The notes under the pieces are model-generated. The model saw only the letters and a list, made by a program, of their open reading frames with translations, made no database searches and was not told the DNA's origin. A stretch of 37,762 nucleotides of DNA from positions 1-37,762 of IMG/VR virus record IMGVR_UViG_3300030019_000085, one strand, 5' to 3'. Below are positions 1,798 to 37,762 of the stretch, piece after piece. Origin of the DNA: a virus. Within the stretch, counting starts at the first letter, position 1. Every line of letters starts with the position of its first letter. A program made the translations under genes and the position numbers.

Positions 1798-4700
1798 CTA
1801 GAATCCTGCTAAGTCGCGAACCGAAGTAAGTCTATCCGTTGCGTCGATTATGTCCGTAACGGCTACCACCGGCGCGATATTTACTTTGCTCATTGCATCG
1901 GCTAATTCCGCATAATCGATCGAAGTAGTTACACTCGTTACACTCGGTATTTCCCCGCCTTCCGCTAGATAGGATTTCACCTTCTCTGACGTAGCGTTCG
2001 CAGGCTTGCTAAAGAACGAGGCTATTTCCGCATGTGTTATCTCTTTGCGCTGACTATTTATGTACTTTATCAGCTTTTTATTCTTCTGCGTAGTATCTTT
2101 GTTAACTACGTACTCGCCGCCTTCTACTTCGATGTTAGTACCAGTGATTCTAGCCCCGCCGTTCGCGTGACTAGCCCCTTTTATCTCGCCGCCATCCGCT
2201 AGCTTCGCGAGCTGCTTAGTTATTATGCCTACCTGCACTGCGCCCGCTGCACCTACTATACCGGCAACAACTAAATTTAAAGGAAAGGTAAGCTTAAGCG
2301 CGCCGGTAATAGCCTCGGCGGTATTGGCAATACCTTGCGCAATTTGACTTATTAAGTCCATCCGCTTTTGTTGCTTCTCCTTCTTCGCGATCTCGGCCTC
2401 TCTCTTCTCTTTCTCTTTCGCGAGCCGCTTCTCTTCTCTCTCTGCTTCTTGTCGTGCGTGCATCGAGTCAGCCAGTTGACTTTTTAACGCGTCGGCCGTT
2501 CCACCTGTAGCCGCTTGCAATTGCTCTTCGATCGACTCAGTGTTCGTTACCGCATCTTCTCTCTGTGTCTTAGCCTCTTCGTACTTGTCGTTTATTACGT
2601 CTAGCTCGTCGTTAAGATCGTCGATTTCCGCCTGTAGCCCCTTTGTGATCGTGTCTGTTACCGCTGTTACCGCAGTAGCCCCCGCAGCAGCAAAGCCGCT
2701 TATCTTATCGAAAAGGTCGCGGTAATATTCCATTGTGGTAGCCTTCGACGCTTTCGTATTCTCTACCTGTTCTTTCTGCGCGCCCTTAATTTTAGAAGTC
2801 ACGTCTGTATTTGCGGCCGCATATTTTTGCATTTCAGCCTCGTACTCTGTAGTGCCTTTTTTAAGCGTGTCTAGCGTAGCTTGGTGAGTCAAGGATAGTT
2901 GGCCTTGATATTCAGTAAGTCCGCTAATATACTCGCCCAGTGCCGAGTTTATTGTAGATAGGCTAGCCTTCGTTGCCTCTACATCGATAAGGTGTAGCCC
3001 TGTTTTACTGCGCTTCGTGTACTCGCCTACTTTGACTTCCACTTGATCGAGCATCTGCTGCACACTCGTGAGCTGCTGATCGCTTTGCGTCTGCATCTGC
3101 GAAGCGGATAATGCTAGTAACTCATTTGCCTGCGCGTCCTGCATATACACTATCGTGTCATTCAGCTTTTGCTTTTCTGAAATAGTCAGGTCTTTTTCGT
3201 CTCTCAGGCGCTTCTTTATGTCAGCTATCTGACGATCGTACTTTATATTAATCTCCGTCCTTGCGCGATCATTTTGCCCGGCGATGGCAGACACGAGCGC
3301 ATCGTCGAAAGTATTCTGTATATCAAGCTCTTTTTGCGCTTGTTCCTTCGCCAAAGCTACCAAGTCTTTAGTCTGCTGCTTCTGCAAAAGAAGTATCTTA
3401 GCATTTATCTGCCTACGTGCGCGAAGCGTTATCGTACTGTCTTGCAACGAATTTTGCTCTTCTAGATTCCTTTTTAAGTCTTGTATCTGTCTCGAGTAGC
3501 TGACCTTAATAGTCTCCCTCTGTTGCTCGTAGCTGTCCTGTATTAGCGCGATTCTAGCGTCCTCTGTAGCGCGCGTCGCGTCTATCTCGTTGCTCTTCCT
3601 CTCTTTTGCAAGGTCTTTATCCGCTTTCAGTCGAGCCGCTCTTTCTATTGCTATATCGTCTTGTATTTGCGTCTGATCGACGTTGAGGTTAGTAGCTATA
3701 CTTACTTTTCTACCGAAATTATCGATTGCGCCTTGCACGCTGTTTATTGCGTCTTCTATCTTTACTTTCTCTACTTTGCCGTTTAAGTCGATATCTAGCG
3801 TAAGTTTGTCTTTACCTTTCGCTTGCGCGGCTCTCAACTTATTGAGGACCACGGTAAGAAGTTCTACCTTCTTTTTATTCGAGTCAAGACTCGCTAATTC
3901 CTTCGCGTAGAATCCGCGCTGCTGCGCGTTGTTCTTCACTCGCTCCGCCGCTAGTGCGTCTTCTGCGGCGCGTATGTCCTTCGTTTTTGCACCTTGCGCG
4001 GTTAGTATGCTTACCTGCGTCTCGGCAGATTTAACACGCGCGTCTCCGGCTTCTTTCAATAGGGTAACTTCGTGCTCTAAATAGTCGAGGTGGATAGCCT
4101 CTAATTCGTTCGCCTTTTTTTGCGACTCGGCCGCCTTGTTTGTGTTAATCATAAACGCGGCTATAGCGCCTACCACCGTGATGAGCGCGAGCGCGAGCAG
4201 AACATAAGGATTTGCGGCAGCTACTATGTTAAACAACTTTTGTGCTATAGTAGCCGCGAGAGTTCCTTTAGTCCCGAGAGCCTCGGCGGCCGTCTTGGCT
4301 CTCAACTGCACAGTGCGTACACCATCTACTACCGCCGCCGTCTTTTCCTGTATCCAACCTTCTTTCACCACTGCGTTGTAAGCCTCACTCGCAGTACTGG
4401 CCAAGGCAAGTATGCCCGCCATGCCTTCTGTAGAGCGCGCTACTACGTTGGTCGTACTTCCTAGCGTCTCAAGAGCCGCATTAGAGCCGAGTACTTCCGT
4501 AGCCATGCCCACACTTCCGCGGGTGGCTAGCTCGAATTTATCCGTCAAGTCCTGTAGGCCCTTATATCCTTTTTCATAATTTCCTACGCTGTCTCTAAAG
4601 TTACCTGTGCTCTCGCGCAGTGCTTTATATTCCGCATCTAACGATTGTATCTGCGTTATCATTTTACCGCCTACCTCGATATCAGCTCGCTGTGTAGCGC

Positions 4701-5088
4701 TTAGCGCTTCGTACGCCACACGCAAGTCAGTAAGCTGCATACCCATCTGAGCGATAGAGCCCTCTGCTAGCTTATTAATGCTAATAGAGCGCGTTACCTC
4801 TCTCGTTTTTTCCTGTAGCGCCTTGGTGGCGGATATCTGCGCCTTATTAGCCTCAGAATCTGCGGAAGCTAGCTTCTTCTGCGTGTCGCTTAGCCGCTTA
4901 GCCGCTTTCTCTTCTTCGGTAAGCGCAGAACTCTTAGTCTTGCTAGCAGCAGCGCTCTTCGCCTCTGTGCTGTTAGTCTTTGCGATCGCGCTATCCAACG
5001 CCTTAATGGCGCTCTCCAGGGAAGTTACATCTTTGACGTTCTGCGTTACCCCGTTTATTTGCAGAGTATATTCTTTTTTGCCGGCCAT
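1798..5088 (-). CDS. Tail tape measure protein
   Basis: A 1096-residue protein that sets siphovirus tail length and lines the tail tube. It is dominated by long Lys/Glu/Ala/Gln coiled-coil stretches (about 30-100, 330-640, 840-910). Hydrophobic segments lie near 294-314 (VLLALALITVVGAIAAFMI) and around 940-970. The C-terminal region contains a LADGGEIKG...HANGG...VEGGEYVVNKD pattern familiar from tape measures of Bacteroidales phages. At about 1.5 angstroms per residue the tail would be near 160 nm. Its ATG overlaps the stop of the upstream tail gene as TAATG, so translation is probably coupled. Unusually, the protease and capsid genes follow it. Confidence 0.88.
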   Translation of the reverse strand: MAGKKEYTLQINGVTQNVKDVTSLESAIKALDSAIAKTNSTEAKSAAASKTKSSALTEEEKAAKRLSDTQKKLASADSEANKAQISATKALQEKTREVTRSISINKLAEGSIAQMGMQLTDLRVAYEALSATQRADIEVGGKMITQIQSLDAEYKALRESTGNFRDSVGNYEKGYKGLQDLTDKFELATRGSVGMATEVLGSNAALETLGSTTNVVARSTEGMAGILALASTASEAYNAVVKEGWIQEKTAAVVDGVRTVQLRAKTAAEALGTKGTLAATIAQKLFNIVAAANPYVLLALALITVVGAIAAFMINTNKAAESQKKANELEAIHLDYLEHEVTLLKEAGDARVKSAETQVSILTAQGAKTKDIRAAEDALAAERVKNNAQQRGFYAKELASLDSNKKKVELLTVVLNKLRAAQAKGKDKLTLDIDLNGKVEKVKIEDAINSVQGAIDNFGRKVSIATNLNVDQTQIQDDIAIERAARLKADKDLAKERKSNEIDATRATEDARIALIQDSYEQQRETIKVSYSRQIQDLKRNLEEQNSLQDSTITLRARRQINAKILLLQKQQTKDLVALAKEQAQKELDIQNTFDDALVSAIAGQNDRARTEINIKYDRQIADIKKRLRDEKDLTISEKQKLNDTIVYMQDAQANELLALSASQMQTQSDQQLTSVQQMLDQVEVKVGEYTKRSKTGLHLIDVEATKASLSTINSALGEYISGLTEYQGQLSLTHQATLDTLKKGTTEYEAEMQKYAAANTDVTSKIKGAQKEQVENTKASKATTMEYYRDLFDKISGFAAAGATAVTAVTDTITKGLQAEIDDLNDELDVINDKYEEAKTQREDAVTNTESIEEQLQAATGGTADALKSQLADSMHARQEAEREEKRLAKEKEKREAEIAKKEKQQKRMDLISQIAQGIANTAEAITGALKLTFPLNLVVAGIVGAAGAVQVGIITKQLAKLADGGEIKGASHANGGARITGTNIEVEGGEYVVNKDTTQKNKKLIKYINSQRKEITHAEIASFFSKPANATSEKVKSYLAEGGEIPSVTSVTTSIDYAELADAMSKVNIAPVVAVTDIIDATDRLTSVRDLAGF

Positions 5089-8000
5089 TATATTCTACGT
5101 ATTAGTTTTAATTTAGTCTTGTTTTTTTGCGACGGATCGTAACCGCTTATCTCCGCAATATAATACAGATCGCCGTTGAATCGTATATACACTGAGCCGT
5201 CTAGCTTCGTATAATCTTCCGCGGTTATGTAACATTCTACCTCAGTGTAGTGCGAAGAGGCGTCGACCAATATAGAGAAGTACTTACCTAGTATAGTATC
5301 GTTCTTATCTTCGTAGCTTAGCTCCATTAATCCATTAAGCGAATTACTTACCTTTGCTAATTTCAAAGCCGCGCCGTTGAAATCGAACTGCCCGCCTATG
5401 TCGTTCAGTAGTCCGTCAAAGTAAAAGAATCTGTACGCCTGCGATGTATAGCGATTCTCCATCGCAGTAGGGTAACTCTCCGTCAATAACCATGCATCAT
5501 TTTTAGATATTATAGGGAGAGGCAATACAACGCTATCCTGTGTTATATCTTTGTACCAATTATACGAAAAGCTACTAGTCTGTTCTGTCACGCTCTCTTC
5601 CGTTGCGCCTGTGTAAAAGTGTCCGCCGCCATTTACCCCGGTGCGAACGTAGCCTTCCTCTTCGGTGTCCACCGTAAAGCCTATCTTATACTCAGATGGT
5701 AGTCCTAGAGAGGTATTCACGCGGTCACGTAGAGACGCCTTCTCCTCGATGTTTAAGTACTTGCTGCTAGTTCCCTTCTTAGTCTGTTTAACGTCTAAAC
5801 TAAATGCCCTAGAATCCGTCTGCGTAAGCTTTAGATTAAACGCCTTTACGAAGTTATCTAGAAAGTCGTCTACTTTAGTATCCGCAGACAGGAAGCCCGC
5901 TAGATTTATACTGTTCACGTCGAAGTTCACGGCGTCGTTCCAATTCATCGCTGCGGTGCCCCTACCTGCGAGGTCTACTTTCAACCAGTCTTCGTCGACG
6001 CGGAAGGGCGTTATACCTAGATCAAATTTCAACTCGTGGTTAACGAGACCGTAGGTAGAGTGCATACCGTCTTTCCTGTAGCGCCCCTCAGAGGACACAG
6101 AGGCAACGGTAAGTAATTCCCCAGCTTTTAACCACACTACGGTACTTACTGCGCCTTGTCCTGTGTAGTTCGCGTCTGCGACCGCATCGTCGTACATGCC
6201 TCGTCTAGCATACACGCTCGGCGCGTTAAGCAGCGACATGTGTAGCTTGCGCGTGCTCTCCCACCCGATCGCGTCCTCGCTACTTTCGACGATAGTTCGA
6301 TTTATGGTTAACGTGCTGCTTACGTCGAAATAGTTATTGGCAAGCCACATAGTTATGCGGGGCTGAAAGCCGGGGACGTCGGCGAGCGTGGTGTCTATAT
6401 GAGCCGTCCCGTTCACGAATTGCGTGCTAGAATATGAATATTCAGCATCGCCGTTAAAAAGAAATATTAGACCAGTATAGTTAGCGTCTACCGGAATGCT
6501 GAATACGTATGTATAATTGCTCTCTAGAGGGAATCTGTTTAGTATCACGTTATTTGCGGCTAACCCCGTGGCCAATATTTGCACAGAACCAAGGGCGCCA
6601 CACACTAAGACCATTTTTGAGCCATTGGTGGATATCGGTATAGTCTGCTCGATGTAAGTCACCGTGGGGCTGCCCGCGACGGGCGCTTTTATGTCTACAT
6701 AGTCTAAACTTGGCCATCCGAAGCCCATACCATTAGGAGAGTAGTAGGCTAATACTGCGACGGCGTTGTTAGCTTCTACCGTAGCCGAGAATTTAACATT
6801 AGCATACAGCGACAAATCTATAAAATCTGTTGTCTCCCACCCGGCCAAAGACGTAATGAGTCCATCTGCGTTGGACAATGCCCAATTTTCCGACCTACCC
6901 GTTATATTAGATGGGGTAGGGTCCACGGGGTTGCCGTGACTATCTAGTACCTTGTTGTGTACCCAAGTCGCAGCTGTGTAGTCTATGTTTATGTTAGGGT
7001 TGTCACCTTCACTGTCGAACGAGCCCAAGCGGCCATACTTCATATACCCCGGAGAATTTACGACTAGCCGCACGGGCGTGTCACCGTTCGCGGTTACGTC
7101 GTAGCTATTGGCCGGTTTAGAAATAAGCACTTGCGCATATCTGTTTTCAGTATCGAGCGGATTATAATATTTCTGCGCGTTAGTGCCGCGATCTGAGTTA
7201 TAACCGAACTCAAAGCCCGCTAATATGTTCGAACTCTGCGCGGCATCCACCATATTTATTTGGCCATCGGCCGTAACAGGCGGGAAATATTTCGGTATGT
7301 TATACTCGTCGTAGATATCATTCTGCGGTTGGTTATCATAGAAAAAAGACCCGTCGAGCTTTGCCCCGGATAGTCCAAAATCCGCATTGCCGTTGTCGCG
7401 CAAAAGCTTTACCTCATATACATTTTCGAACATGCGGTTGTTCGCATTCTCAGAGAGTCCGCTTATATGCTGTATGCCTGTATTCGAGTCGGTAACTCGC
7501 CAATTCGAATTACCGAACACATTCAAACTGGCTTTAAAAGTGAGCTTGTAAAAGCCCTCTGTAGGTATGCGTATCTGTCCGCGTGTCCAGGGGAAACCGT
7601 CGGCGTCGTTAACCGTCTTTAGTAGAACATTCCCGCCGGTGTCTTCGCGCACTTCTATCTTAGAATTAGTAGCGTCTAATACGTCGCAACTGTATATCGT
7701 GCCTGTGTCATCTGACGATTGATTTATGCCGCGCTCTAATCGAGCCGTGTTTGTAATCCGCTCGTATGTTGAGGCCCACGCGCCCGATACGCGGATAGTG
7801 GCGTGATGGCCGTAGTTCCAAGGCTGCGTGTAGTCTGCCTCATTGCGATAGCTCATATACAGTTGTTTCAACTTTTCGTCAGAGAAGGCCGTACCCGATA
7901 TCACGTACCCTTTCGAGTTAAATATGTGCTGTATGATTATAAGAGGGTTCACGGCGGGCGGAAGATCACTCATACCTATATATACGCTGTCGTCCCACAC

Positions 8001-8525
8001 TGTACGACCTGAGTAGGTATTCGCATCTTTATTAAGCGGGGCTTTAGGAAGAAGTCCGTAAAGCACGAACGGAAATATAGCCGCCTGCGGTTCAGTCCTA
8101 GCCGCTTCGTTGTACAGGTTAATATATTCCGCGAAATCTACGAATGGTATTCTGTATTCCGCGATAGCATTTAGCGCTATATCGCCGAAAATGTCCTTAA
8201 CGGACTTCGCCGTCGGCACGTACAAATTCCCTTTGTATGCATCACTCACTTCCGTAAGTCGAAACCTACCCGTGAAGACGCGAGAACCTGCCACGATGCA
8301 CTCAGCATTATATTCCGTTACGAACTTATTGCGCGTCTCTTCTACGTTCGCGTGCCCGAAAACTATGTCGTTAGTTTCCGTAAGAGGCAGCGATATAGAG
8401 TAGCTATACTGCGCGTCCTTGGTACTCAACTCAGCAGGGTTAATCAGCTGCCTGTTTAGACGCAAGCTAAAGTCGGAAGATAAATCTACCAACGTGCCGT
8501 TAATATATAGTTCTGTATTATTCAT
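5088..8525 (-). CDS. Large tail structural protein (hub or baseplate type)
   Basis: A 1145-residue protein beginning MNNTELYINGTLVDL, with a conserved-looking segment LRLNRQLINPAELSTKDAQY near residues 22-41. I recognise this opening from large tail proteins of Bacteroidales siphoviruses. The middle is beta-rich with many Asn/Thr/Tyr and sugar-binding-like sections; no catalytic motif is evident. It lies between a 527-residue tail protein and the tape measure gene, which supports a tail-tip, hub or baseplate role. The start overlaps the preceding stop by 8 bases (ATGAATAA). The exact role is not determined by sequence alone. Confidence 0.6.
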   Translation of the reverse strand: MNNTELYINGTLVDLSSDFSLRLNRQLINPAELSTKDAQYSYSISLPLTETNDIVFGHANVEETRNKFVTEYNAECIVAGSRVFTGRFRLTEVSDAYKGNLYVPTAKSVKDIFGDIALNAIAEYRIPFVDFAEYINLYNEAARTEPQAAIFPFVLYGLLPKAPLNKDANTYSGRTVWDDSVYIGMSDLPPAVNPLIIIQHIFNSKGYVISGTAFSDEKLKQLYMSYRNEADYTQPWNYGHHATIRVSGAWASTYERITNTARLERGINQSSDDTGTIYSCDVLDATNSKIEVREDTGGNVLLKTVNDADGFPWTRGQIRIPTEGFYKLTFKASLNVFGNSNWRVTDSNTGIQHISGLSENANNRMFENVYEVKLLRDNGNADFGLSGAKLDGSFFYDNQPQNDIYDEYNIPKYFPPVTADGQINMVDAAQSSNILAGFEFGYNSDRGTNAQKYYNPLDTENRYAQVLISKPANSYDVTANGDTPVRLVVNSPGYMKYGRLGSFDSEGDNPNINIDYTAATWVHNKVLDSHGNPVDPTPSNITGRSENWALSNADGLITSLAGWETTDFIDLSLYANVKFSATVEANNAVAVLAYYSPNGMGFGWPSLDYVDIKAPVAGSPTVTYIEQTIPISTNGSKMVLVCGALGSVQILATGLAANNVILNRFPLESNYTYVFSIPVDANYTGLIFLFNGDAEYSYSSTQFVNGTAHIDTTLADVPGFQPRITMWLANNYFDVSSTLTINRTIVESSEDAIGWESTRKLHMSLLNAPSVYARRGMYDDAVADANYTGQGAVSTVVWLKAGELLTVASVSSEGRYRKDGMHSTYGLVNHELKFDLGITPFRVDEDWLKVDLAGRGTAAMNWNDAVNFDVNSINLAGFLSADTKVDDFLDNFVKAFNLKLTQTDSRAFSLDVKQTKKGTSSKYLNIEEKASLRDRVNTSLGLPSEYKIGFTVDTEEEGYVRTGVNGGGHFYTGATEESVTEQTSSFSYNWYKDITQDSVVLPLPIISKNDAWLLTESYPTAMENRYTSQAYRFFYFDGLLNDIGGQFDFNGAALKLAKVSNSLNGLMELSYEDKNDTILGKYFSILVDASSHYTEVECYITAEDYTKLDGSVYIRFNGDLYYIAEISGYDPSQKNKTKLKLIRRI

Positions 8526-10101
8526 TTGTGTAAGTAGCGCTTAAATGGTACTTCAAAGTAGGCACTTGCATGTTAAATGCAGAGGACGTCTTTTTTAGTT
8601 GAAAATCGTCGCGTACTAGATAGTTTCCGTCCTTATCTAGCAGTACTCGTGCGGTGGCCAACTCTTTAAGCCAGTCCGCTACTTCGTCTGTACATGGCGA
8701 GCCCTCTATCGTTATCGTGTCTTCTAACGATACAGAGTGCATAAGCTCGTCGCCTGCTTCCTGCACATTTACAGGCGTGACCGTTCTATTGTACGTGTCC
8801 GTTGTGGGTTTAATCTCGTCTTGCAAAGTAGCGTCAAAATTGTACGTATCCCATCCGCCTAACTTATTAAGAAAGGTAATCGGGTTTAGGACGTGCAGGC
8901 AGTCGGGCAGTACTCTGTATTCTAGCGAATTAGACACGGCCGCGCTGCCTCTAGCTAGATTTACTTTTATCTCGCCGGCGCCCGGATATGCATCCAGTAG
9001 CGCATCTATATTCAACGCGCACGTATTTACGATATTAAGCGCTGCTCGTTCGATCGGGTCTGAATCCATGCTTCCTAGATAGTCTCCGCCCGTGGCGTAC
9101 GCTCTATACAACACGCGCAACGCGTAGTCAATGGGTTCAGCGACGCCCCTTTGCGGGTCTTCGGCTATAAAATTAAGATATTCCCTCTGCCCGCGCATGT
9201 ACGTAGTGCGCGGCTTATTAGTAAGAAGCTGTATAGTAGAATCTAAATACACACGACCCGCTAACGGGTCTATATCTAGCAAAGACCCGTAACCGTTCAC
9301 TATGCACAGCGCCTTTGAATAGTAAAAATTGCTAGCCTCAACACTAGCTATTAGTCTGTACATACCACAAGTCCCTGCATTGAACCACCCGAATCCGCGT
9401 ATAGGTAGATTGTATGGCCGGTAGTTCGCAAAGACGGAGCTTATGTCGAACCACATAGGCGCACCGGCGTACGTCTTCTGCATCGTAAGTATCAGGTCGC
9501 CTAACTTCTCTCTCGTCGTAGGCGCATCGTTCTCCCCTAAAAAAAGACTGTTCACGGAATAGACCTCTACTTCTATCTCCGCGGTGCTGCTCTCGCCGCT
9601 TATGCTGTCGCCTAACGCGCTAACGGGAACTACCTGCGTAATAAGATAAGCCGTCCCGCCTGTATCCGCAGGCTTGGTAATCGTTATATTATAATCCGTA
9701 CCCGCGCCTTTGCTTTTTATACGAATATGCGCACCGTTAGTAGTTACCCCACTAACCACGCTCGGCAAAATGAATATATCAAAATTAGAGGATATCCAAG
9801 TATTTAGTAACATGGCCTTACGTATGTTACCAGCCGTTACCGAAGCATCAGCACCAAGTAAAAACACGCTTCCTGTTACTTTGTCCGCATCTGAGGTAGC
9901 CGTAAAATTGTATATCGCGCCATCGGGCGTGGTTAGCCTTATCGTCGCGGTGTTAACCGTTGGCGACAACACTTGTATGTCTATCTCTAGATAAACGGGC
10001 GTACTAGGCTTGCTCTCAATGCGCAAAAAGTTAGGAAGGCCCGAGAGGGAAACTCTCGTAGGACCCGTTATAACTGCTATATCTCTACTAATATACCCCA
10101 T
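8518..10101 (-). CDS. Tail structural protein, distal-tail candidate
   Basis: A 527-residue, predominantly beta-strand protein (MGYISRDIAVITG...). It has no signal peptide and no enzymatic motif I can see. It follows two neck/tail-completion-like genes and directly precedes the 1145-residue tail protein, with an 8-base overlap. That position fits a distal tail or baseplate component. The N-terminal 180 residues look like immunoglobulin-like beta sheets; the C-terminal half has mixed alpha/beta stretches. The functional call is contextual. Confidence 0.5.
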   Translation of the reverse strand: MGYISRDIAVITGPTRVSLSGLPNFLRIESKPSTPVYLEIDIQVLSPTVNTATIRLTTPDGAIYNFTATSDADKVTGSVFLLGADASVTAGNIRKAMLLNTWISSNFDIFILPSVVSGVTTNGAHIRIKSKGAGTDYNITITKPADTGGTAYLITQVVPVSALGDSISGESSTAEIEVEVYSVNSLFLGENDAPTTREKLGDLILTMQKTYAGAPMWFDISSVFANYRPYNLPIRGFGWFNAGTCGMYRLIASVEASNFYYSKALCIVNGYGSLLDIDPLAGRVYLDSTIQLLTNKPRTTYMRGQREYLNFIAEDPQRGVAEPIDYALRVLYRAYATGGDYLGSMDSDPIERAALNIVNTCALNIDALLDAYPGAGEIKVNLARGSAAVSNSLEYRVLPDCLHVLNPITFLNKLGGWDTYNFDATLQDEIKPTTDTYNRTVTPVNVQEAGDELMHSVSLEDTITIEGSPCTDEVADWLKELATARVLLDKDGNYLVRDDFQLKKTSSAFNMQVPTLKYHLSATYTNE

Positions 10102-10104
10102 AGT

Positions 10105-10584
10105 CTAATTGTTAAAAAATAAATCTAAATTATCGAAAATCGACGCCATTAATTTATCTGACCAATCGTCTTCGAAGAGCCCGTCTAGCTCTCTATCGAT
10201 AGTTGCAAAGATGGGTCTACCTTTGTGCCCATCGCGCCATATTGCCGTCGATATCTTATACAGTGTCTCCGCGTCCGTCGGTATGCCGTTGGATGCCGCC
10301 CAGTCTTTTAGCGCGTCTATAGGCGGCGGCTTCTTGTATCTCTTAGGCCTGTCCCATTCTAAGTACACTATATAATTATTAAACAAAGCCGTTATCACAG
10401 GATCGCCGCCGTTAAAAGTAGTTACTGTGCCTTCTAAGTCGCCGTGCAGTGCGCTGTCGCGCAGCGTGTTTCGTCCTATCTTCACGTTCGTACCCACGCT
10501 GTCATCTTCCAGCACAAGCGCCGATAAGGATAGCAAGTCGTCGGCTATCTTATTAATCGCGAGTCTAACTCCTTCCGCGCTCAT
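10105..10584 (-). CDS. HK97 gp10-like neck/tail completion protein
   Basis: A 159-residue protein. The stretch NNYIVYLEWDRPKRYKKPPP (about residues 70-89), then DALKDWA, GIPTDAETLYKIS and IWRDGHKGRPIF, matches the typical order of the HK97 gp10-like family in Bacteroidales phages: N-x-YIVY-E, PPIDAL-DWA, GIPTD, IWRDG-KGRP. Such proteins sit at the head-tail junction. It lies one base downstream of the preceding gene and three bases upstream of the next, consistent with a tight virion operon. Confidence 0.65.
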   Translation of the reverse strand: MSAEGVRLAINKIADDLLSLSALVLEDDSVGTNVKIGRNTLRDSALHGDLEGTVTTFNGGDPVITALFNNYIVYLEWDRPKRYKKPPPIDALKDWAASNGIPTDAETLYKISTAIWRDGHKGRPIFATIDRELDGLFEDDWSDKLMASIFDNLDLFFNN

Positions 10585-10585
10585 A

Positions 10586-11119
10586 TTAATCTAGCTTAAA
10601 AGTCGGTAGCGCGCTACTATCGGTAAATACCGCGCATCCGTCAGGGTTGTCTACACTGAAATCAGGCAGAGAAGCAAGTGAAGGAAACACCTTAGTCGCG
10701 TCGTAGTCGTCTAGGCATTTATCTGTAGGGTTCGCTTGTAAGAGCGTCAGAGTAAACCTGTACCCTGCGGCCCCGTCGTCGTAATATTCGCGAAGAGAGA
10801 CAAAGCTAAAGCCCTCTACGCTTACGCCCGTGGTAGCGCGAGTACTGCGTATTCTATATATAACGGATAGGCCTACGTCGAATGCAGAAGATTGCACGGC
10901 CTGCTCGCTCTCTGTCTCCGAAGGTAGCCCTAATATATCGACGTTAACCGTGTAACGCATAACACTCTCAGACATGCTCTGCCCCATTATAGGGTCATCG
11001 AGCCACATAAGCGGATACATAGAATTGCCCGCACCTTGCTGATACGATTTGTTGTAAGTAAATCCGCGCAGGCGCTTGTTCTGACGCGCAATCTCGTAGA
11101 ATAGGTTAACTATTTGCAT
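10586..11119 (-). CDS. Putative tail terminator or neck protein
   Basis: A 177-residue protein (MQIVNLFYEIARQNKR...). It has the layout short helix, then YPLMWLDDP, then a VMRYTVNVDILGLP beta segment, then REYYDDGAAGYRFTLTL. This resembles small tail-terminator/neck proteins that precede gp10-like proteins in Bacteroidales siphoviruses. Its ATG lies just 3' of the chaperone-like gene and follows a TAAGGAT sequence, one of the few starts here with a purine-rich, SD-like leader. The identity rests on position and overall pattern and could be another neck component. Confidence 0.42.
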   Translation of the reverse strand: MQIVNLFYEIARQNKRLRGFTYNKSYQQGAGNSMYPLMWLDDPIMGQSMSESVMRYTVNVDILGLPSETESEQAVQSSAFDVGLSVIYRIRSTRATTGVSVEGFSFVSLREYYDDGAAGYRFTLTLLQANPTDKCLDDYDATKVFPSLASLPDFSVDNPDGCAVFTDSSALPTFKLD

Positions 11120-11123
11120 ATCC

Positions 11124-11875
11124 TTATTTTTTTTGTAGTTGCTTGTCTAATCTATGTTGTGCCGCTTCGGCGTTGCTCTTGTCGTAGAGATATTGCAGAA
11201 ACGTGAATACTTCTGTAGCCGGGCGCGAAGTAACCTTATCAAAATCAAGTATCTTATCACCTGCCAAATCCGATATAACTTTATACCACCCCCACGCACG
11301 CGTAAATCTTTTATACTCCGCGGCAAGTGGCCTACCAGTTCGCACGCATTCGAGTATGCTTCTGTGTGCTGATCGCACGCCGTCTTGCACTGCAAAAAAA
11401 AAGCGAGCACGCCAAGTAACTTGCTCATCGGGGCGGCCGCAAATATGGCCGCACGCGCTTCGTTTTTCTCGCCGTTGTAATCTTCGCCCGAGGGTCTGCA
11501 TACTATAGCTAACGTATTAGATAGTACCGCCTTCCCGCTCTTCTGTACTTCGTCCGTATCTACCCACATGCCGAGCGTTATCCTTCCTTCTACAGGAACG
11601 GTATAGTTAACTCCGCCGATCTTCACATTAGCGCAGGGCTCGTGCTCGTTATCTGCAAATAGGAACTCTACCAAGTTCAGTATGCTGTTAAATACTTCCG
11701 TGGGCCAATCGAGCAATACGGACATATCTATGCTGCATATTGTAGCTACATACTCTACCCTCCCTCTATTAGTCGAGGTATCGATCGCATATGCTCTCTC
11801 ATACGCATCTAGCGTGATATCGTCCCACGACGTGGGCACGGCTATCTCTGTATCTTTATATTCTATCTGTACCAT
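11124..11875 (-). CDS. Tail assembly chaperone-like gene with probable -1 frameshift
   Basis: Frame 0 starts at ATG 11875 (MVQIEYKDTEIAVP...) and stays open to 11147 (242 residues). Its first 160 residues look like gpG-type tail chaperones of Bacteroidales phages. At codons 158-160 it reads GCT TTT TTT within nine Ts (11394-11402), a T_TTT_TTT slippery heptamer. A -1 slip joins it to the other frame, whose remaining 90 residues contain AWGWYKVISDLA, KILDFDKVTS and EVFTFLQYLYDK and look like real protein, ending at 11124. The fusion would be 250 residues. The frame 0 tail after the slip is Arg/Ile-rich and unconvincing. This parallels lambda gpG/gpGT. A miscounted homopolymer (ten Ts) or an indel is the main alternative. 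Confidence 0.7.
11394..11404 (-). promoter_or_regulatory. T9 slippery site for -1 frameshift
   Basis: On the minus strand this reads GC followed by nine Ts. In frame 0 the codons are GCT TTT TTT TTG, so the heptamer T_TTT_TTT is correctly phased for a tandem -1 slip. A small GTGC-GATCA-GCAC hairpin can form about 15-20 bases downstream. The upstream frame looks genuine before this point and the -1 frame after it. Confidence 0.6.
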
Positions 11876-11879
11876 AATA

Positions 11880-11887
11880 CAAAGATA
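11880..11887 (-). promoter_or_regulatory. TATCTTTG element, 4 bases before chaperone ATG
   Basis: Minus strand TATCTTTG then TATT then ATG. It matches the Bacteroidetes -7 consensus TAnnTTTG, but no TTG is found at -33 spacing. Spacing to the start codon equals that at 1773-1780 and 36260-36267. It shares a 47-bp divergent intergenic region with the portal gene. Leaderless transcription is an inference. Confidence 0.45.
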
Positions 11888-11897
11888 AATAGCTCTG

Positions 11898-11910
11898 TTT
11901 TTATCTTTTT
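11898..11910 (+). promoter_or_regulatory. TTTTTATCTTTTT element upstream of portal gene
   Basis: The plus strand carries the same T-run/TATCTTT core as the minus-strand late elements, 12 bases before the portal ATG. Together with 11880-11887 it forms a compact divergent pair that could launch both virion transcripts. There is no -33 TTG. The assignment is by motif similarity only. Confidence 0.38.
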
Positions 11911-11922
11911 AAAAAAAGTAAG

Positions 11923-13179
11923 ATGGAAAAAGAAATATCCGTATTAAAAATGTCCGTAGCCGACGCCGTTCCCGCGTTCCCGCGTATAGCACTAAACCGA
12001 GGAATGGGCGTCGTTAATTTCGGCGTAAGGAACGACTTCCCTACAGAGGTAGTGCGTATCAATTCCAAGAGCGCGATTAACAGTGCGATTATAAAGAGCA
12101 CGGTCAATTACGTATTAGGCAAGGGCGTACGAGACACCCCCGAGAACGCCGATTTATTTGTAGGTGTGCCGAACTCGGGCGAATCGTGGGACGACTTCCT
12201 AGAGCCCGTCGTGCTAGATTATAAGACGTTCGGCGGGTTCTACTTTCAGGTGATCGTAAACAAAGGAAGCACCACCGTATCGCTATTCCATCAGGACTAC
12301 ACCACTGTGCGAATAGGTAGGATAAGCCCTACAGGGGACGCCCTGTCTTTTAAGATCGCGGCCGACTGGAAAAAAGCCGCAGGTAAGTACAAAGCCATTG
12401 AGCTAGACTCATGGCCAGGCATGAAGGACGCGGAAAAAGGAAAGGCATACATGTTCCACCATTGGGACTACACGCCCGGCTTGGCGCACTATTCCGTGCC
12501 TGAGTACTTTCCTGCAATCGAGTACGTGAAGGCCGACGGCGCCCTTGGCGAGTTCTACAATAACTCTATCGATAACGGCTTCACCGCCTCTGTCGTGATC
12601 AAAATGCCCTCAAATCCGAGCGAGGAAAAGAAGGCGGCGTTTCAAGCGCAGATGGAAAACGCCTTTAGCGGCGCCAAAGGGGCCTCATCTATCGTGATAT
12701 TGTGGGGTGAGAACACAGAAGTAAAGCCTGACATCGTGCCCTTCCAAGCCGCGGCCAACGCGGACATATATAACGACGTAGAAGGCATCGTCTTTCAGAA
12801 GATCGTAAGCGCGCACCGACTCAGCAGCCCCACATTGGCGGGCGTCTCCGGCTCGGGCAACCTATCAGGTAACGCCTCTGAGATAATCGACGCATACATC
12901 CTATACAACTACACCGTGATCGAGAAAATGCGCAGAAAGGTCTTGGACAAAGTAAACCTATTTACAAAAATAAATGGTACTTGCGAGCTGCGCATAGCCG
13001 ACTTGGACGTGCTTGCGAAGATTCAAGAATCGAACGGAGACGCGGCTACGGCGCCTGCTACCGATAGCGCTACAGCAGTGCCGGCTACGCTTACAAAGAA
13101 GCCATACATATTTAAATTAATCGAAAACTTAACACGCGCCCTGAATGGAAATCGCACTAATAAACGAAGAGCTATTTAA
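11923..13179 (+). CDS. Portal protein
   Basis: A 418-residue protein resembling portal proteins of Bacteroidales siphoviruses. It shows NSAIIKSTVNYVLGKGV (about 47-63), then YKTFGGFYFQVI, and a conserved-looking C-terminal half with HRLSSPTLAGVSGSGNLSGN followed by a long helix. It would form the dodecameric ring at the packaging vertex that docks the terminase and connector. It is on the plus strand, opposite to capsid, protease and terminase genes, which is unusual because portal normally lies between terminase and protease. The connector gene starts 35 bases before its stop. The start follows an A-rich stretch ending AAGTAAG. Confidence 0.82.
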   Translation: MEKEISVLKMSVADAVPAFPRIALNRGMGVVNFGVRNDFPTEVVRINSKSAINSAIIKSTVNYVLGKGVRDTPENADLFVGVPNSGESWDDFLEPVVLDYKTFGGFYFQVIVNKGSTTVSLFHQDYTTVRIGRISPTGDALSFKIAADWKKAAGKYKAIELDSWPGMKDAEKGKAYMFHHWDYTPGLAHYSVPEYFPAIEYVKADGALGEFYNNSIDNGFTASVVIKMPSNPSEEKKAAFQAQMENAFSGAKGASSIVILWGENTEVKPDIVPFQAAANADIYNDVEGIVFQKIVSAHRLSSPTLAGVSGSGNLSGNASEIIDAYILYNYTVIEKMRRKVLDKVNLFTKINGTCELRIADLDVLAKIQESNGDAATAPATDSATAVPATLTKKPYIFKLIENLTRALNGNRTNKRRAI

Positions 13180-15248: not shown

Positions 15249-15581
15249 ATGGACGTATTAATCGTGGCCCCGCAAGGGGCAGGTAAAAGCACTACGGTGC
15301 GAGACATCATCGAAGCGAGAGGCCGCAGAATCAATACCGTATGCGTGTTAAACATGCACCGGTACATGTGCACTAACAATCATGCTATAATCGCGTCTTG
15401 CGACGAAAGTACACCGGATGTAGTTGTGTTCGATAACGGTTGCATTTGCGATGCATTCGAACTTAAAAGAATTACAGAGGCTATGCAAGCATACCGTGCA
15501 TACTATAATCGCGAAGTTACGGCTATATATTGCGTACAGGGTCTAATGCGCGAAGTTATTAACGAACCAATCGAGGACTAA
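15249..15581 (+). CDS. Small P-loop protein with intact Walker A
   Basis: A 110-residue protein. MDVLIVAPQGAGKST at the N-terminus contains a Walker A (A7-x4-GKS14) right after the first beta strand. PDVVVFDNG (about 58-66) is a plausible Walker B strand with an aspartate. It is only about half the size of ordinary P-loop kinases and lacks a clear lid region. It is the first of two tandem paralogues: the next gene shares MD-L-IAP, PDVVVFD-G and a KQYR/QAYR helix but has lost the Walker A residues. Nucleotide binding is likely; the substrate is unknown. Confidence 0.65.
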   Translation: MDVLIVAPQGAGKSTTVRDIIEARGRRINTVCVLNMHRYMCTNNHAIIASCDESTPDVVVFDNGCICDAFELKRITEAMQAYRAYYNREVTAIYCVQGLMREVINEPIED

Positions 15582-15582
15582 T

Positions 15583-15936
15583 ATGGATATACTTTTAATC
15601 GCCCCTAAAGATGAGGCCCGCAACACGGCCGTGTCGAAGCTCATCGCAGTGTATAAGAAGCAGAGCGGAAAGAAGAACATCCGTATAGCGCAGCTTAGCG
15701 ATATCGTAGTTAGCAGCATATCAATCAACGAAGTGCTCGATTGGGCTACGGAAGGAAAGCCGGACGTGGTCGTGTTCGATGGCGGAATAGTAGGAGCAGA
15801 CGATCTGTCAGTAGCCACTGCCGCGATGAAGCAGTACCGAGAGAGCGAAGGACGCGACGTACTAGCTATATACGCAGCTACTGTAGAGGATATAACCGAA
15901 GACCCCGAAGTGAGTCGCAAGAAGTTACGGCGATGA
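15583..15936 (+). CDS. P-loop paralogue with degenerate Walker A
   Basis: A 117-residue paralogue of the preceding protein. Aligning the N-termini gives IVAPQGAGKSTTVRDII over LIAPKDEARNTAVSKLI, so the GKS triad is replaced by ARN. The second strand is better conserved (PDVVVFDGGIVGADDL). It therefore probably no longer binds nucleotide in the ordinary way. It could be a regulatory partner of the upstream P-loop protein, for example in a heterodimer; that is inference. It overlaps the next small gene by ATGA. Confidence 0.65.
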   Translation: MDILLIAPKDEARNTAVSKLIAVYKKQSGKKNIRIAQLSDIVVSSISINEVLDWATEGKPDVVVFDGGIVGADDLSVATAAMKQYRESEGRDVLAIYAATVEDITEDPEVSRKKLRR

Positions 15937-22830: not shown

Positions 22831-25271
22831 AATTTGCGAATATACATCTTTTGCAGGCCATAAAACTTGACGCGCATAGGGGGCGCGGGCGTCCAATCGC
22901 GCAATGTTTTCATCACTCGCCCTATGTCCATGCTGTCGCGCCGCGTGATATCTTCGGGCGATTTACCTAGACATTCTGTCCATATCTCGAGTATGCACAC
23001 ATATTTCCGCTCTTCCGCGCCGTCGTTTTCTTCCTCTCTTATCCAATTTCGGCGGGAATACGGCTCCATCGCCCCCCAATTATTCGGCAGTTTTCGCTTT
23101 AGATACTCGAGTATTAGCCCGCTTCGCTCGTCTTTCTCCATGTGTTTATCCTGAATCGCGCGCGCTTCGCACTCTAATTCTTCTTCTAAATACAACCTCT
23201 CCCCGTCGATGTATCGGCTTTTCGCTTCCGCCCACAGCTGCGCCACGATCGATGGTGACATGTATTCATAGAACGGCTCCGCGCCTTTCTTATTTTTACA
23301 GTTCAGCACCCAAAATCGGCGGTTGCCCGTCACGTCTCGCAGGAAGTCTTCCTCATTAGTCGTGCCAAAGAACACACACCTGCGAGGGAAGTACTCTATA
23401 CGACGGCCATACGCTACTCTGTAGCGATCTTCCGTCTTACTGACGAAGTGTTTCACTGCCTCTACTTCCGCTCGCCTTAAACCGGCCAATTCGCCAAGTT
23501 CTATCAACCACGCGCCCTGTATGCTTTCTATTGCTGCATTGCCTGTCAACTGTGTAACGCTATCGCTGAACCAATCCCCGCCCATCGCTTTTAATGTGCT
23601 AGACTTGCCGACACCTTGGTCGCCAATGATAACGAGAATATAATCGAACTTCGTCCCCGGCTTGTAAATACGGGCCACGGCCGCAGTAAACGCCTTGCGC
23701 GTTATCGCGCGTGTATAAGATGTGTCTTCTGCTCCGAAAATGCGTATGAATAGATCATCTAACCTTTCTTCGTTATCCCATTCGAGCGAGTCGAGGTAAT
23801 TTTTAATAGGGTGATAACTGTTGCCACGAAGCGCTACTGTGAGCCCGTCTGCTATATTTTCTTTGCCGGCGATATCATAGCAGCGTTCGAAGTATAGCCT
23901 CAACTCTGCGTCGTCGCTGTCCCTAAGCGGGCGCGGGTACTTTAATCCGACCTTGTCCCATGGAAGCACCTTGATAGCCGTCTCTCTTTGTTCGAATTCG
24001 TTGTACCCAAAGCGGCCTTGCAAATTAGCGTCGTTATTCAAAATCGTAACTATGTTGCTGATCGTTGACTTAATCTTTCCGGATTTCCCTTCTGTCTCTA
24101 GATCGCCTACCCACTCATCCTTCGTGGCCGCCTTGACCGCTTTCTCTTCCGCCACGTCGTAGTCGCTAGCTGACGACTCTCGACGCTCTCTGACTATCTC
24201 TTTCTTTACGAGTTTCAGCTCTGCGGCAAAAGCGGACATAGCTTTGAAACTCGGTGTCTTCGTAATATCCGCGCCTTCTTTCACGTGTTCGTCTAAGTCT
24301 GCGAACTTGTGCAAGCGAACTAAGTCGAACGCGTTGCACAGCTTTCCGCCTGCGGGGTCTGTGTTGTGATGACTGTACGCGAGCTTGTGGTCGTACACGA
24401 TGAGGCCGCCGCTCGTGCTACCTGGCAGATAGCTGTAGCGGTCTTCTCCTAACTCCTCACAGGGTGCGTACACCTCAGGAAGGAACTCGGCGATAGCTTC
24501 GTCCAGGGAATAAGCCCGGCAGAACGCACCAATTATACCTACCTTCACTTCGGGGTCTTCTACCTTATCTGAGGTAGCCGAGCGCCGCACTTCCTTCTCT
24601 CGCGATGAGGCCGGCCATGACGTTACATCTGTCCAGTCCTCGAGTTCCGCGAGTACCTTGTCTGCACACATGATAGGGCCGTCACTCACATGAGAGATAA
24701 ACTCCCCATCTTTCGGCGATGAGGGGTAATACATAAGCCTCGTCGCCTGGTACGTGGTGTCGTCGAACACCTCAATATCAAGCCACGAGGCTACTACGTG
24801 TGCGATGCACTCGTACTCGTCCGGGGTCACCGGCCTGTCTAACGGAAATACAATACGGAATCTCGGAGACTCGGGCCTATGCTTGTGCGTGGTATATAGC
24901 AGTCCTGCGTACTCGAGCAGACCGAAGTCGATCCACACATCAAGATTGCCGAAGTCCACATCTAGTGCGACTAACTGCCTACTTTCTACAAAGCCTCTGC
25001 GGCGCCACCCATACGGCGGTTTAAACGTTACATCTACGCCTTTTATCTTATTCGTGCCGCCGAGCAGCTTACCACCTACGAAGCCGCCGACGTCTTTAAT
25101 CTCGTCTTGCCGGTCTTTCGTGTAAGAGAAGTACTGCTTCACGGTCTCCTTCGTGCGCTCCGTGCTCGTGAGCTGCGCTACTACCTCACTCCACAAAATG
25201 CGCTTGTTCTTCCACTTTGCCGCGCGAGCGCTCGACGCTGTTGCTATGTCTAGACTTATGTCGTACTTCAT
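22815..25271 (-). CDS. VapE-type primase-helicase
   Basis: An 818-residue protein started at ATG 25271, which overlaps the methyltransferase stop as ATGA (an in-frame ATG 19 codons upstream is less likely). The N-terminal AEP-like primase half has LVALDVDFGN (100-109) with Asp104 and Asp106, and HRPESPRFRIVFPLDRPV (131-148). The C-terminal virulence-associated-E helicase half has Walker A GDQGVGKSS (550-558), Walker B-like AWLIELGEL (587-595), sensor FFGTTNE (634-640) and an arginine-finger-like TGNRRFW (648-654). It would prime and unwind at the origin, and the TTGGTAAC region begins at its 3' end. The stop is TAG. Confidence 0.87.
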   Translation of the reverse strand: MKYDISLDIATASSARAAKWKNKRILWSEVVAQLTSTERTKETVKQYFSYTKDRQDEIKDVGGFVGGKLLGGTNKIKGVDVTFKPPYGWRRRGFVESRQLVALDVDFGNLDVWIDFGLLEYAGLLYTTHKHRPESPRFRIVFPLDRPVTPDEYECIAHVVASWLDIEVFDDTTYQATRLMYYPSSPKDGEFISHVSDGPIMCADKVLAELEDWTDVTSWPASSREKEVRRSATSDKVEDPEVKVGIIGAFCRAYSLDEAIAEFLPEVYAPCEELGEDRYSYLPGSTSGGLIVYDHKLAYSHHNTDPAGGKLCNAFDLVRLHKFADLDEHVKEGADITKTPSFKAMSAFAAELKLVKKEIVRERRESSASDYDVAEEKAVKAATKDEWVGDLETEGKSGKIKSTISNIVTILNNDANLQGRFGYNEFEQRETAIKVLPWDKVGLKYPRPLRDSDDAELRLYFERCYDIAGKENIADGLTVALRGNSYHPIKNYLDSLEWDNEERLDDLFIRIFGAEDTSYTRAITRKAFTAAVARIYKPGTKFDYILVIIGDQGVGKSSTLKAMGGDWFSDSVTQLTGNAAIESIQGAWLIELGELAGLRRAEVEAVKHFVSKTEDRYRVAYGRRIEYFPRRCVFFGTTNEEDFLRDVTGNRRFWVLNCKNKKGAEPFYEYMSPSIVAQLWAEAKSRYIDGERLYLEEELECEARAIQDKHMEKDERSGLILEYLKRKLPNNWGAMEPYSRRNWIREEENDGAEERKYVCILEIWTECLGKSPEDITRRDSMDIGRVMKTLRDWTPAPPMRVKFYGLQKMYIRKLLPRK

Positions 25272-26146
25272 AATATCTCGTTTAAAATCATTTGTGTAAA
25301 TATGTGTGCTATCACGTCTACCGTCCACCCGTTACCGAGCTGCCGGTATCGCTGCGTGTCACTTACCATTTCGGTATATCCGTCCGGAAGCGTCTGCAAA
25401 CGTTCGCACTCTACTGGCGTGAACTTCCTAATAAGGGGCGGGACTCTCCTTCTATCGATTAAGACGTTGTGAGGAACACCCTTGTACATGTTCTTTATTA
25501 AACAGGCGCTTTTACTTTTTCTCGTATCAGAGTGATATCCGTATTTCCATTTTACGCGACCATTCTTGCTACTACTATACATATAATCTACACCCTTTCT
25601 ACTGTGCGCGTATTTATACACTTGCGTAAGCGGCTCTAGTATATCTGTTAACCGAATATCTTTCTTCTCGATACTAGCTGATAAATGTATGTTAGTCCAA
25701 TAGAGCCTCTTACGACTTTGCGCGGACACGAGCCGAGAATCTATGCAGATAGCCGGAACGCTTAACATGGCATTTATCCTATCTACGTGTATCTTCTTCA
25801 TAGGTGTGTTTTCTAATAGAAAGTATTTAGGCTTTATAATTTTTACGGCTCTTTCAAATTCGAATATAAGCCGACTTTCGGGGTCTTCAAAATTTAATCC
25901 CTTTCCGGCGATTGAAAAGCCTTTGCAAGGCGTCCCACCTATTACAAGATCAAATCCGATGTACTTAGTAAAGTCCGCACCTTCTACACTTCCGGCCTGC
26001 TCTATATCGGGGGGGGAATTCCAAGTAGATACGGCAATAGCACACGAGTCTATTTCGTATGCTATATACCTCTCTACGGATATGCCGGCGCGATCGAGCG
26101 CTACTCTCCCGCAACTGATACCGTCACAGATAGATACTACCCTCAT
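25268..26146 (-). CDS. C5-cytosine DNA methyltransferase
   Basis: A 292-residue protein with the ordered C5-MTase motifs. Motif I is SICDGISCGRVAL (5-17), motif IV GGTPCKGFS with catalytic Cys74, motif VI LLENT (109-113), motif VIII QSRKRLYW (142-149), motif IX FTPVECERLQTLPDGYT and motif X RYRQLGNGWTVDV. The target recognition region between VIII and IX is short. No cognate restriction enzyme is nearby, so it is probably an orphan that protects phage DNA or alters host methylation. It is coupled upstream to a tiny predicted lipoprotein gene and downstream to VapE by ATGA overlaps. Confidence 0.92.
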   Translation of the reverse strand: MRVVSICDGISCGRVALDRAGISVERYIAYEIDSCAIAVSTWNSPPDIEQAGSVEGADFTKYIGFDLVIGGTPCKGFSIAGKGLNFEDPESRLIFEFERAVKIIKPKYFLLENTPMKKIHVDRINAMLSVPAICIDSRLVSAQSRKRLYWTNIHLSASIEKKDIRLTDILEPLTQVYKYAHSRKGVDYMYSSSKNGRVKWKYGYHSDTRKSKSACLIKNMYKGVPHNVLIDRRRVPPLIRKFTPVECERLQTLPDGYTEMVSDTQRYRQLGNGWTVDVIAHIFTQMILNEIL

Positions 26147-36948: not shown

Positions 36949-37762
36949 TTACGCGATAACGGCAGGCACGTCCTCGGTGCGCTGATTAAGAGTCACAGTG
37001 AGTTGTCTATCTGCATCAGGGAGAGAAACAACTACTTGACCCGTGCGAGCGTTGATATTACCGCCGGCTGCGGTGGCTACTACGCTGACGGTAGTCACTC
37101 CGTTTGTAGTCGTTCCTTTCGTTGCGGTAAATCCTACAGCACTTGCGGCGTTGATATCGGGTGTGACACCTGCTGCGGTGTAAATCTTAAACGTCTTAGT
37201 TTCTCCTGCTGCGGTGAATACTAAAGAGTTAGGAACTACGACTAAGCCGTCGCCTTCTACGTGTCCGCCACTGGCTACTGTGATGGACGGATCAATTATC
37301 ACTATCTCATCTTCGAACGGAATCACAAAGCCAAGACGCAAGCGCCCTTTTATGAAGATTTTATCCTCGTTTGGTTTTGGAAAGCTTCCGAGTTCGATCT
37401 GCTCTAAATCGGACAATATATCGGTTAAGAAGATGGCGTTCGTGCTATCATAGAAAATGAGCGTGTTCTTGCCGATGCCCTTAACAGGCACTAACTCTAC
37501 ACCTAAGTAGTAGAGTTTAGGATTTTTCTTGTCGGCGTCGTCGACTGTCCAGGAAGCCGCAATAACGGTATTGCTCTTTTCTGCCAAAGCGGCGCGAACG
37601 AGACGACGAGCAGCATAACTACACAATACATATAATGTACCTGCATCCTCTGCCTGTAAAACATCCTCAGGAATAGCGTTATATCCGTCCTCGATTAAGC
37701 CGAGAATATTAGCCTTCGTCAAAGTAGCGCCTACCATCTTAATAGACTCAGTGCTGCTAAGT
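36949..37762 (-). CDS. Major capsid protein, C-terminal part with BACON-like domain
   Basis: This is the continuation of the gene that starts at 597 on the left end; the last 127 bases here duplicate the left end. Residues 200-427 are encoded from 37635 to the stop at 36949. A typical capsid region with SYAARRLVRAALAEKS and PNEDKIFIKGRLRLGFVIPF is followed by a C-terminal domain (about 329-419). That domain has PNSLVFTAAGETKTFKIYTA, then INARTGQVVVSLPDADRQLT and VTLNQR, the BACON fold pattern. The domain probably projects from the capsid surface and could bind mucin or other glycans; that is inference. An ATG at 37737 is internal (residue 166). Confidence 0.8.
   Translation of the reverse strand, partial: LSSTESIKMVGATLTKANILGLIEDGYNAIPEDVLQAEDAGTLYVLCSYAARRLVRAALAEKSNTVIAASWTVDDADKKNPKLYYLGVELVPVKGIGKNTLIFYDSTNAIFLTDILSDLEQIELGSFPKPNEDKIFIKGRLRLGFVIPFEDEIVIIDPSITVASGGHVEGDGLVVVPNSLVFTAAGETKTFKIYTAAGVTPDINAASAVGFTATKGTTTNGVTTVSVVATAAGGNINARTGQVVVSLPDADRQLTVTLNQRTEDVPAVIA
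37636..37762. repeat. Right copy of 127-bp terminal direct repeat
   Basis: Identical to bases 1-127. It lies inside the capsid coding sequence, and joining the ends restores one continuous reading frame. It is interpreted as an assembly overlap of a circular map. Confidence 0.95.

Follow-up and report, generated by a model that had tools for sequence, protein, structure and literature searches.

The window analyzed in this study, the whole 37,762-nt virus record IMGVR_UViG_3300030019_000085, carries on its minus strand a gene, here called the slip gene, whose two halves lie in different frames and meet at a run of nine Ts (Table 1). An earlier note, made from the sequence alone, had read the gene as 160 N-terminal residues in frame 0 and 90 C-terminal residues in the -1 frame joined at this run, with a correctly phased T_TTT_TTT among the nine Ts. 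The window translation and the homologues bear out the two halves, and the heptamer is indeed in phase. A shift there gives a fusion of 250 aa with the junction ...LAFF-FAVQDG... in the window translation. The same note was right that frame 0 stays open long past the slip (82 codons), and the two predicted products are of 242 and 250 aa. No other A or T run of at least nine is present in the whole window. However, at least one T9 was found in 39 of 100 shuffles of the 37.8-kb window; a T9 is therefore unsurprising by chance at this length, and its weight rests on its conservation. A run of eight As (11127-11134, minus strand) was also observed immediately 5' of the stop codon of the C-half.

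Table 1. The slip gene, its parts and the genes downstream of it in the window.
Feature	Coordinates	Strand	Remarks
Frame-0 ORF of the recoded gene	11147..11875	-	242 aa; stop included in coordinates
Shared N-half	11396..11875	-	160 aa; distant match to phrog_32199
T9 slip run	11394..11402	-	Frame 0 reads GCT TTT TTT TTG
C-half, -1 frame	11124..11396	-	90 aa and stop; WGWY motif
Frame-0 tail past the slip	11147..11395	-	82 codons; overlaps the C-half
177-aa gene	10586..11119	-	Directly downstream of the slip gene; conserved neighbor
159-aa gene	10105..10584	-	Conserved neighbor
527-aa gene	8518..10101	-	Conserved neighbor
1145-aa gene	5088..8525	-	Conserved neighbor; probably tail or baseplate, from its position
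1096-aa tape-measure-like gene	1798..5088	-	Four genes downstream; putative, from length and composition

In the window's clade the slip gene is followed by the 177-, 159-, 527- and 1145-aa genes and then by the tape-measure-like gene. The slip gene is thus not placed just upstream of the tape measure gene in this clade, and the four intervening genes are those the earlier note had counted. Profile searches with the 177-, 159- and 527-aa proteins returned nothing significant, and the 1096-aa protein has no family match. Several Dysgonomonas and Prevotella relatives possess a tape-measure-like stretch upstream, on the opposite strand. The portal gene (11923-13179, plus strand) is divergent from the slip gene across the gap 11875-11923, and the window's relatives share this layout. 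The last 127 bases of the record (37636-37762) repeat the first 127 (1-127), so the record probably represents a complete phage genome assembled as a circle. Elsewhere in the window, two tandem plus-strand genes (15249-15581 and 15583-15936) encode paralogous small proteins with 32% identity (E 3e-14); the first has a P-loop-like start, MDVLIVAPQGAGKST, and the second has lost the P-loop, MDILLIAPKDEARNT. A 292-aa ORF (25268-26146), which looks like a DNA methyltransferase, contains a run of eight Gs at 26009-26016 (C8 on the coding strand), a possible slip-prone tract.

Relatives were collected from IMG/VR and genome assemblies with fused-protein queries and with peptide patterns that excluded the slip site. 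Two half-profiles were run on all stop-to-stop ORFs, and a total of 199 loci possess both halves. This finder relied on the WGWY motif and an N-terminal motif, so that members without both would be missed. The 199 loci include repeats of the same contigs and reduce to 141 distinct sequences with a -1 junction, which form 99 clusters at 95%, 81 at 80% and 37 at 60% identity; the window's slip gene is identical in DNA to that of locus L002, and the two were therefore counted once. At 196 of the 199 loci the frame of the C-half is -1 relative to the N-half. In the other three (L103 from Dysgonomonas sp. 520, L129 and L152) the halves share one frame, and all three carry T10 or T11. The homologue comparison proposed by the earlier note thus found both the slip site and the two frames conserved. 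Dysgonomonas sp. 520 has two family copies on different contigs, L103 (9001-9753) with T10 in frame and L125 with T9 and a -1 junction.

The cultured members are Nonlabens phages P12024L and P12024S, with T9 at the same place and with the halves as two separate hypothetical genes. In P12024L these are P12024L_40 and P12024L_41, which correspond to phrog_32199 and phrog_38404, two PHROGs without assigned function. Among 20 family members, phrog_32199 matches the N-half in nine and phrog_38404 the C-half in nine, but the two PHROGs are not recognized as one recoded gene. Only the first Met, P14 and the two slip-site Phe residues are invariant across 20 diverse members. Prophage or host genomes with the family come from Bacteroides stercorirosoris, Dysgonomonas, Prevotella and a Rikenellaceae MAG. 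No nucleotide match of the window to cultured phages was found. Flavobacterium phage 6H gp10, distantly related to the N-half (HMM E 4e-5), was not counted as a member because it has only T6, near its end, and an immediate stop in the -1 frame. The slip gene belongs to a family, so far without a name, that sits in the tail module of Bacteroidota phages.

The fold of L103, a homologue that is naturally in frame, was predicted with confidence (pLDDT 95.5, pTM 0.87), and a helix spans the slip site in it. No significant relative of the fusion was found in the PDB by sequence or fold, and no sequence similarity to chaperone families was found in PHROGs, Pfam, NCBIfam or the PDB. Among predicted viral structures the close matches carry no functional annotation; those with a name come from three other phages, have low TM-scores and are chaperones of tail assembly or of the tape measure. 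The weak fold match to the Kitkat chaperone has probability 0.94, E 0.06 and TM 0.35, and that to the ctCpR1 chaperone has probability 1.00 and E 0.0023 with an equally weak TM of 0.35. Gene position together with these weak matches (TM-score about 0.35) makes a tail chaperone role like that of gpG/gpGT plausible, and this is our best guess at the function of the slip gene. The tail-chaperone-like character given in the earlier note is therefore plausible from fold and position, but it finds no match to a sequence family.

Only four of the 196 -1 loci depart from T9 or T10, namely three T7 loci (two clusters) and one T8. The run occurs in three codon phases around the same Phe-Phe: NNT TTT TTT TTN, NTT TTT TTT TNN and TTT TTT TTT NNN. 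Just three T runs of at least nine were found elsewhere in same-strand ORFs in 331 kb. TTC is absent from the two slip codons in 79 clusters, as against 40% of the other Phe codons in these genes; this contrast does not amount to a formal probability, since the T-run itself served to locate the slip site and the clusters share ancestry. Counts over clusters are likewise not independent, for the latter reason. A run of about nine or more A/T is kept regardless of codon phase, as expected of a transcriptional slippage site. An in-phase heptamer of the X_XXY_YYZ type, as expected of a ribosomal -1 site, is found as T_TTT_TTT in nearly all members (L173 has ATC TTT TTT TTG). In the in-frame members, one U fewer restores the usual frame-0 tail, and L103 then ends in residues identical to those of its T9 relative L026; one U more, equal to the ribosomal -1 frame, leads to an immediate stop in L103 and L152 and leaves about 50 codons open in L129.

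A programmed frame change at the T-run that produces a fusion is strongly supported by these comparisons of sequence. Bacterial RNA polymerase slips efficiently in vivo on nine As or Ts (PMC5009743), and A/T runs of about nine are avoided in the coding sequence of many bacteria (PMC1088944). A length of about nine, rather than just the heptamer, is kept in three phases, and no conserved RNA structure was detected downstream (mean z -0.46 over 79 clusters versus -0.19 in control stretches; +0.26 in the window). These two features favor transcriptional slippage over, or alongside, ribosomal -1 shifting, and we regard RNA polymerase as the likelier main cause of the frame change.

A ribosomal slip site should tolerate C as the last heptamer base, and a stimulatory RNA structure downstream is frequent, though not obligatory, at ribosomal -1 sites. 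A classical ribosomal -1 frameshift on T_TTT_TTT in the style of lambda G/GT, with the extra Ts supplied mostly by encoded Phe and Leu, is possible, but we do not favor it. The encoded Phe/Leu residues do enforce part of the T-run. T_TTT_TTT is in phase in every T9/T10 member, so that ribosomal shifting would work there too; nothing more than this heptamer is left in the two T7 clusters, and their halves are still in the -1 relation. With T7 in two clusters and T8 in one, these runs are short for polymerase slippage, and the T7 clusters suggest that ribosomal shifting also works. Ribosomal -1 shifting is, moreover, the rule in phage tail chaperone genes (PMC5009743). However, the total length of nine is kept although the flank supplying the extra Ts changes, C is never seen as the final heptamer base, and no downstream structure is conserved. 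In L103 a ribosomal -1 shift would run into an early stop, while the loss of one U would lead to the conserved frame-0 tail. The programmed -1 frameshift of the earlier note stands as a frame change at the site (196 of 199 loci), but on the grounds of the varying phase, the missing C and the missing structure a ribosomal mechanism is not the best supported one.

With polymerase slippage as the main cause, host RNA polymerase would slip on the T9 and yield a share of ten-U transcripts. Translated in the ordinary way, these would produce the 250-aa fusion, and nine-U transcripts the 242-aa frame-0 protein. Slippage of the ribosome by -1 at T_TTT_TTT within the run may contribute, and in the few T7 relatives it would probably suffice. 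The two products, in a set ratio, may serve as tail assembly chaperones in the manner of lambda gpG and gpGT. To this whole reading, a recoded tail-module gene that relies mainly on polymerase slippage, has both C-termini under selection in the family and has a gpG/gpGT-like role, we assign a probability of roughly 0.55.

The frame-0 tail differs widely in length among the relatives, from 5 to 86 codons (only 25 in P12024L). The observed open length has a median of 61 codons versus 23 in simulations in which -1 codons were swapped for random synonyms, and it reaches p<0.05 in 46% of clusters. Between pairs of relatives, third-position divergence of the -1 frame is 0.162 in the overlap versus about 0.30 in the N part, with first and second positions about equally diverged. 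Substitutions silent in the -1 frame that are also silent in frame 0 show a threefold excess (53 versus 17.4 expected; ratio 0.32). This ratio is 0.93 in the other phantom frame, and phantom frames of the N part range over 0.86-1.03. The rarity of new stops adds no independent evidence, since open frames were selected. Divergence at fourfold sites is 0.33 upstream, 0.15 within the frame-0 ORF and 0.26 past its stop, and in short-tailed relatives it is 0.06 inside the frame-0 ORF and 0.29 beyond; this pattern in long- and short-tailed relatives indicates that the constraint tracks the frame-0 ORF. Dysgonomonas-type phages show a strong drop (0.60 to 0.26) and the window's clade a weak one (0.58 upstream to 0.44 inside), with pairs that are not independent. 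Judged from these substitution patterns, purifying selection acts on the frame-0 tail in the family, though weakly in the window's clade. Both C-termini are thus probably used. The earlier suggestion of two proteins with different C-termini accordingly holds for the family, where frame 0 is open longer than expected and selected, and weakly for the window's own clade.

The structure predicted for the window's frame-0 tail continues the helix and adds a second helix of moderate confidence and a disordered end. It is conceivable, if in our judgment the lesser prospect, that this tail is a by-product, an end of the protein without function whose frame merely happens to be open. The variable tail length, the low predicted confidence at the end of the frame-0 protein and the weak signal in the window's clade agree with this. 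However, the constraint is specific to frame 0, stops near the frame-0 stop and is missing at equal distance in short-tailed relatives, and the open length exceeds the simulated one. We tentatively propose that in a large group of Bacteroidota phages the polymerase, not the ribosome, might set the ratio of the two tail-assembly proteins, and that both post-slip frames might encode selected C-termini, as alternative ends rather than as short and extended forms.

Phase variation, in which DNA polymerase slippage at the T-run toggles the C-half between genomes, is improbable. Three in-frame T10/T11 alleles do exist, L103 being close to T9 relatives, and T10 and T9 copies occur within one host assembly; but the -1 relation is the same in 196 of 199 loci, and phase variation would mix the states among close relatives. 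Homopolymers are prone to error and one assembly alone could be wrong, but a sequencing error, a broken gene or a simple gene is excluded by the same junction in 37 clusters at 60% identity, from metagenomes, isolate genomes and two cultured phages.

Like lambda gpG/gpGT and their counterparts, the slip gene lies in the tail module and would yield an N-half alone and one joined to a -1 C-half, with similar sizes. Unlike them, it has no sequence match to any chaperone family and is not adjacent to the tape measure gene; the site of its family is T9 or T10 in any codon phase, and its frame 0 is open for up to 86 codons under selection. The frame change at nine A/T is shared with the transcriptional slippage of Shigella mxiE and spa13 and of Thermus thermophilus dnaX. 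Slippage gives rise to the longer product in mxiE and spa13 (PMC5009743, PMC1088944), as proposed for the slip gene. Unlike these three, the slip gene belongs to a phage tail module, both its post-slip frames are seemingly selected, and slippage is proposed here from sequence. In the open-access literature we found no phage tail gene described as using transcriptional slippage, and no account of the slip gene as recoded. A recoded phage tail-module gene is a known kind; the phase-free conserved run of nine Ts and the selected second C-terminus mark the slip gene as a variant.

The finding unites two halves that stand in databases as separate proteins without assigned function, in a family that spans phages and prophages from several genera of Bacteroidales and from marine flavobacteria. 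The family provides a natural test case for polymerase stutter as a replacement for ribosomal frameshifting in the assembly of phage tails. With a frame-0 tail that is used, these genes would sustain dual coding across some 60 codons, in contrast to lambda G/GT.
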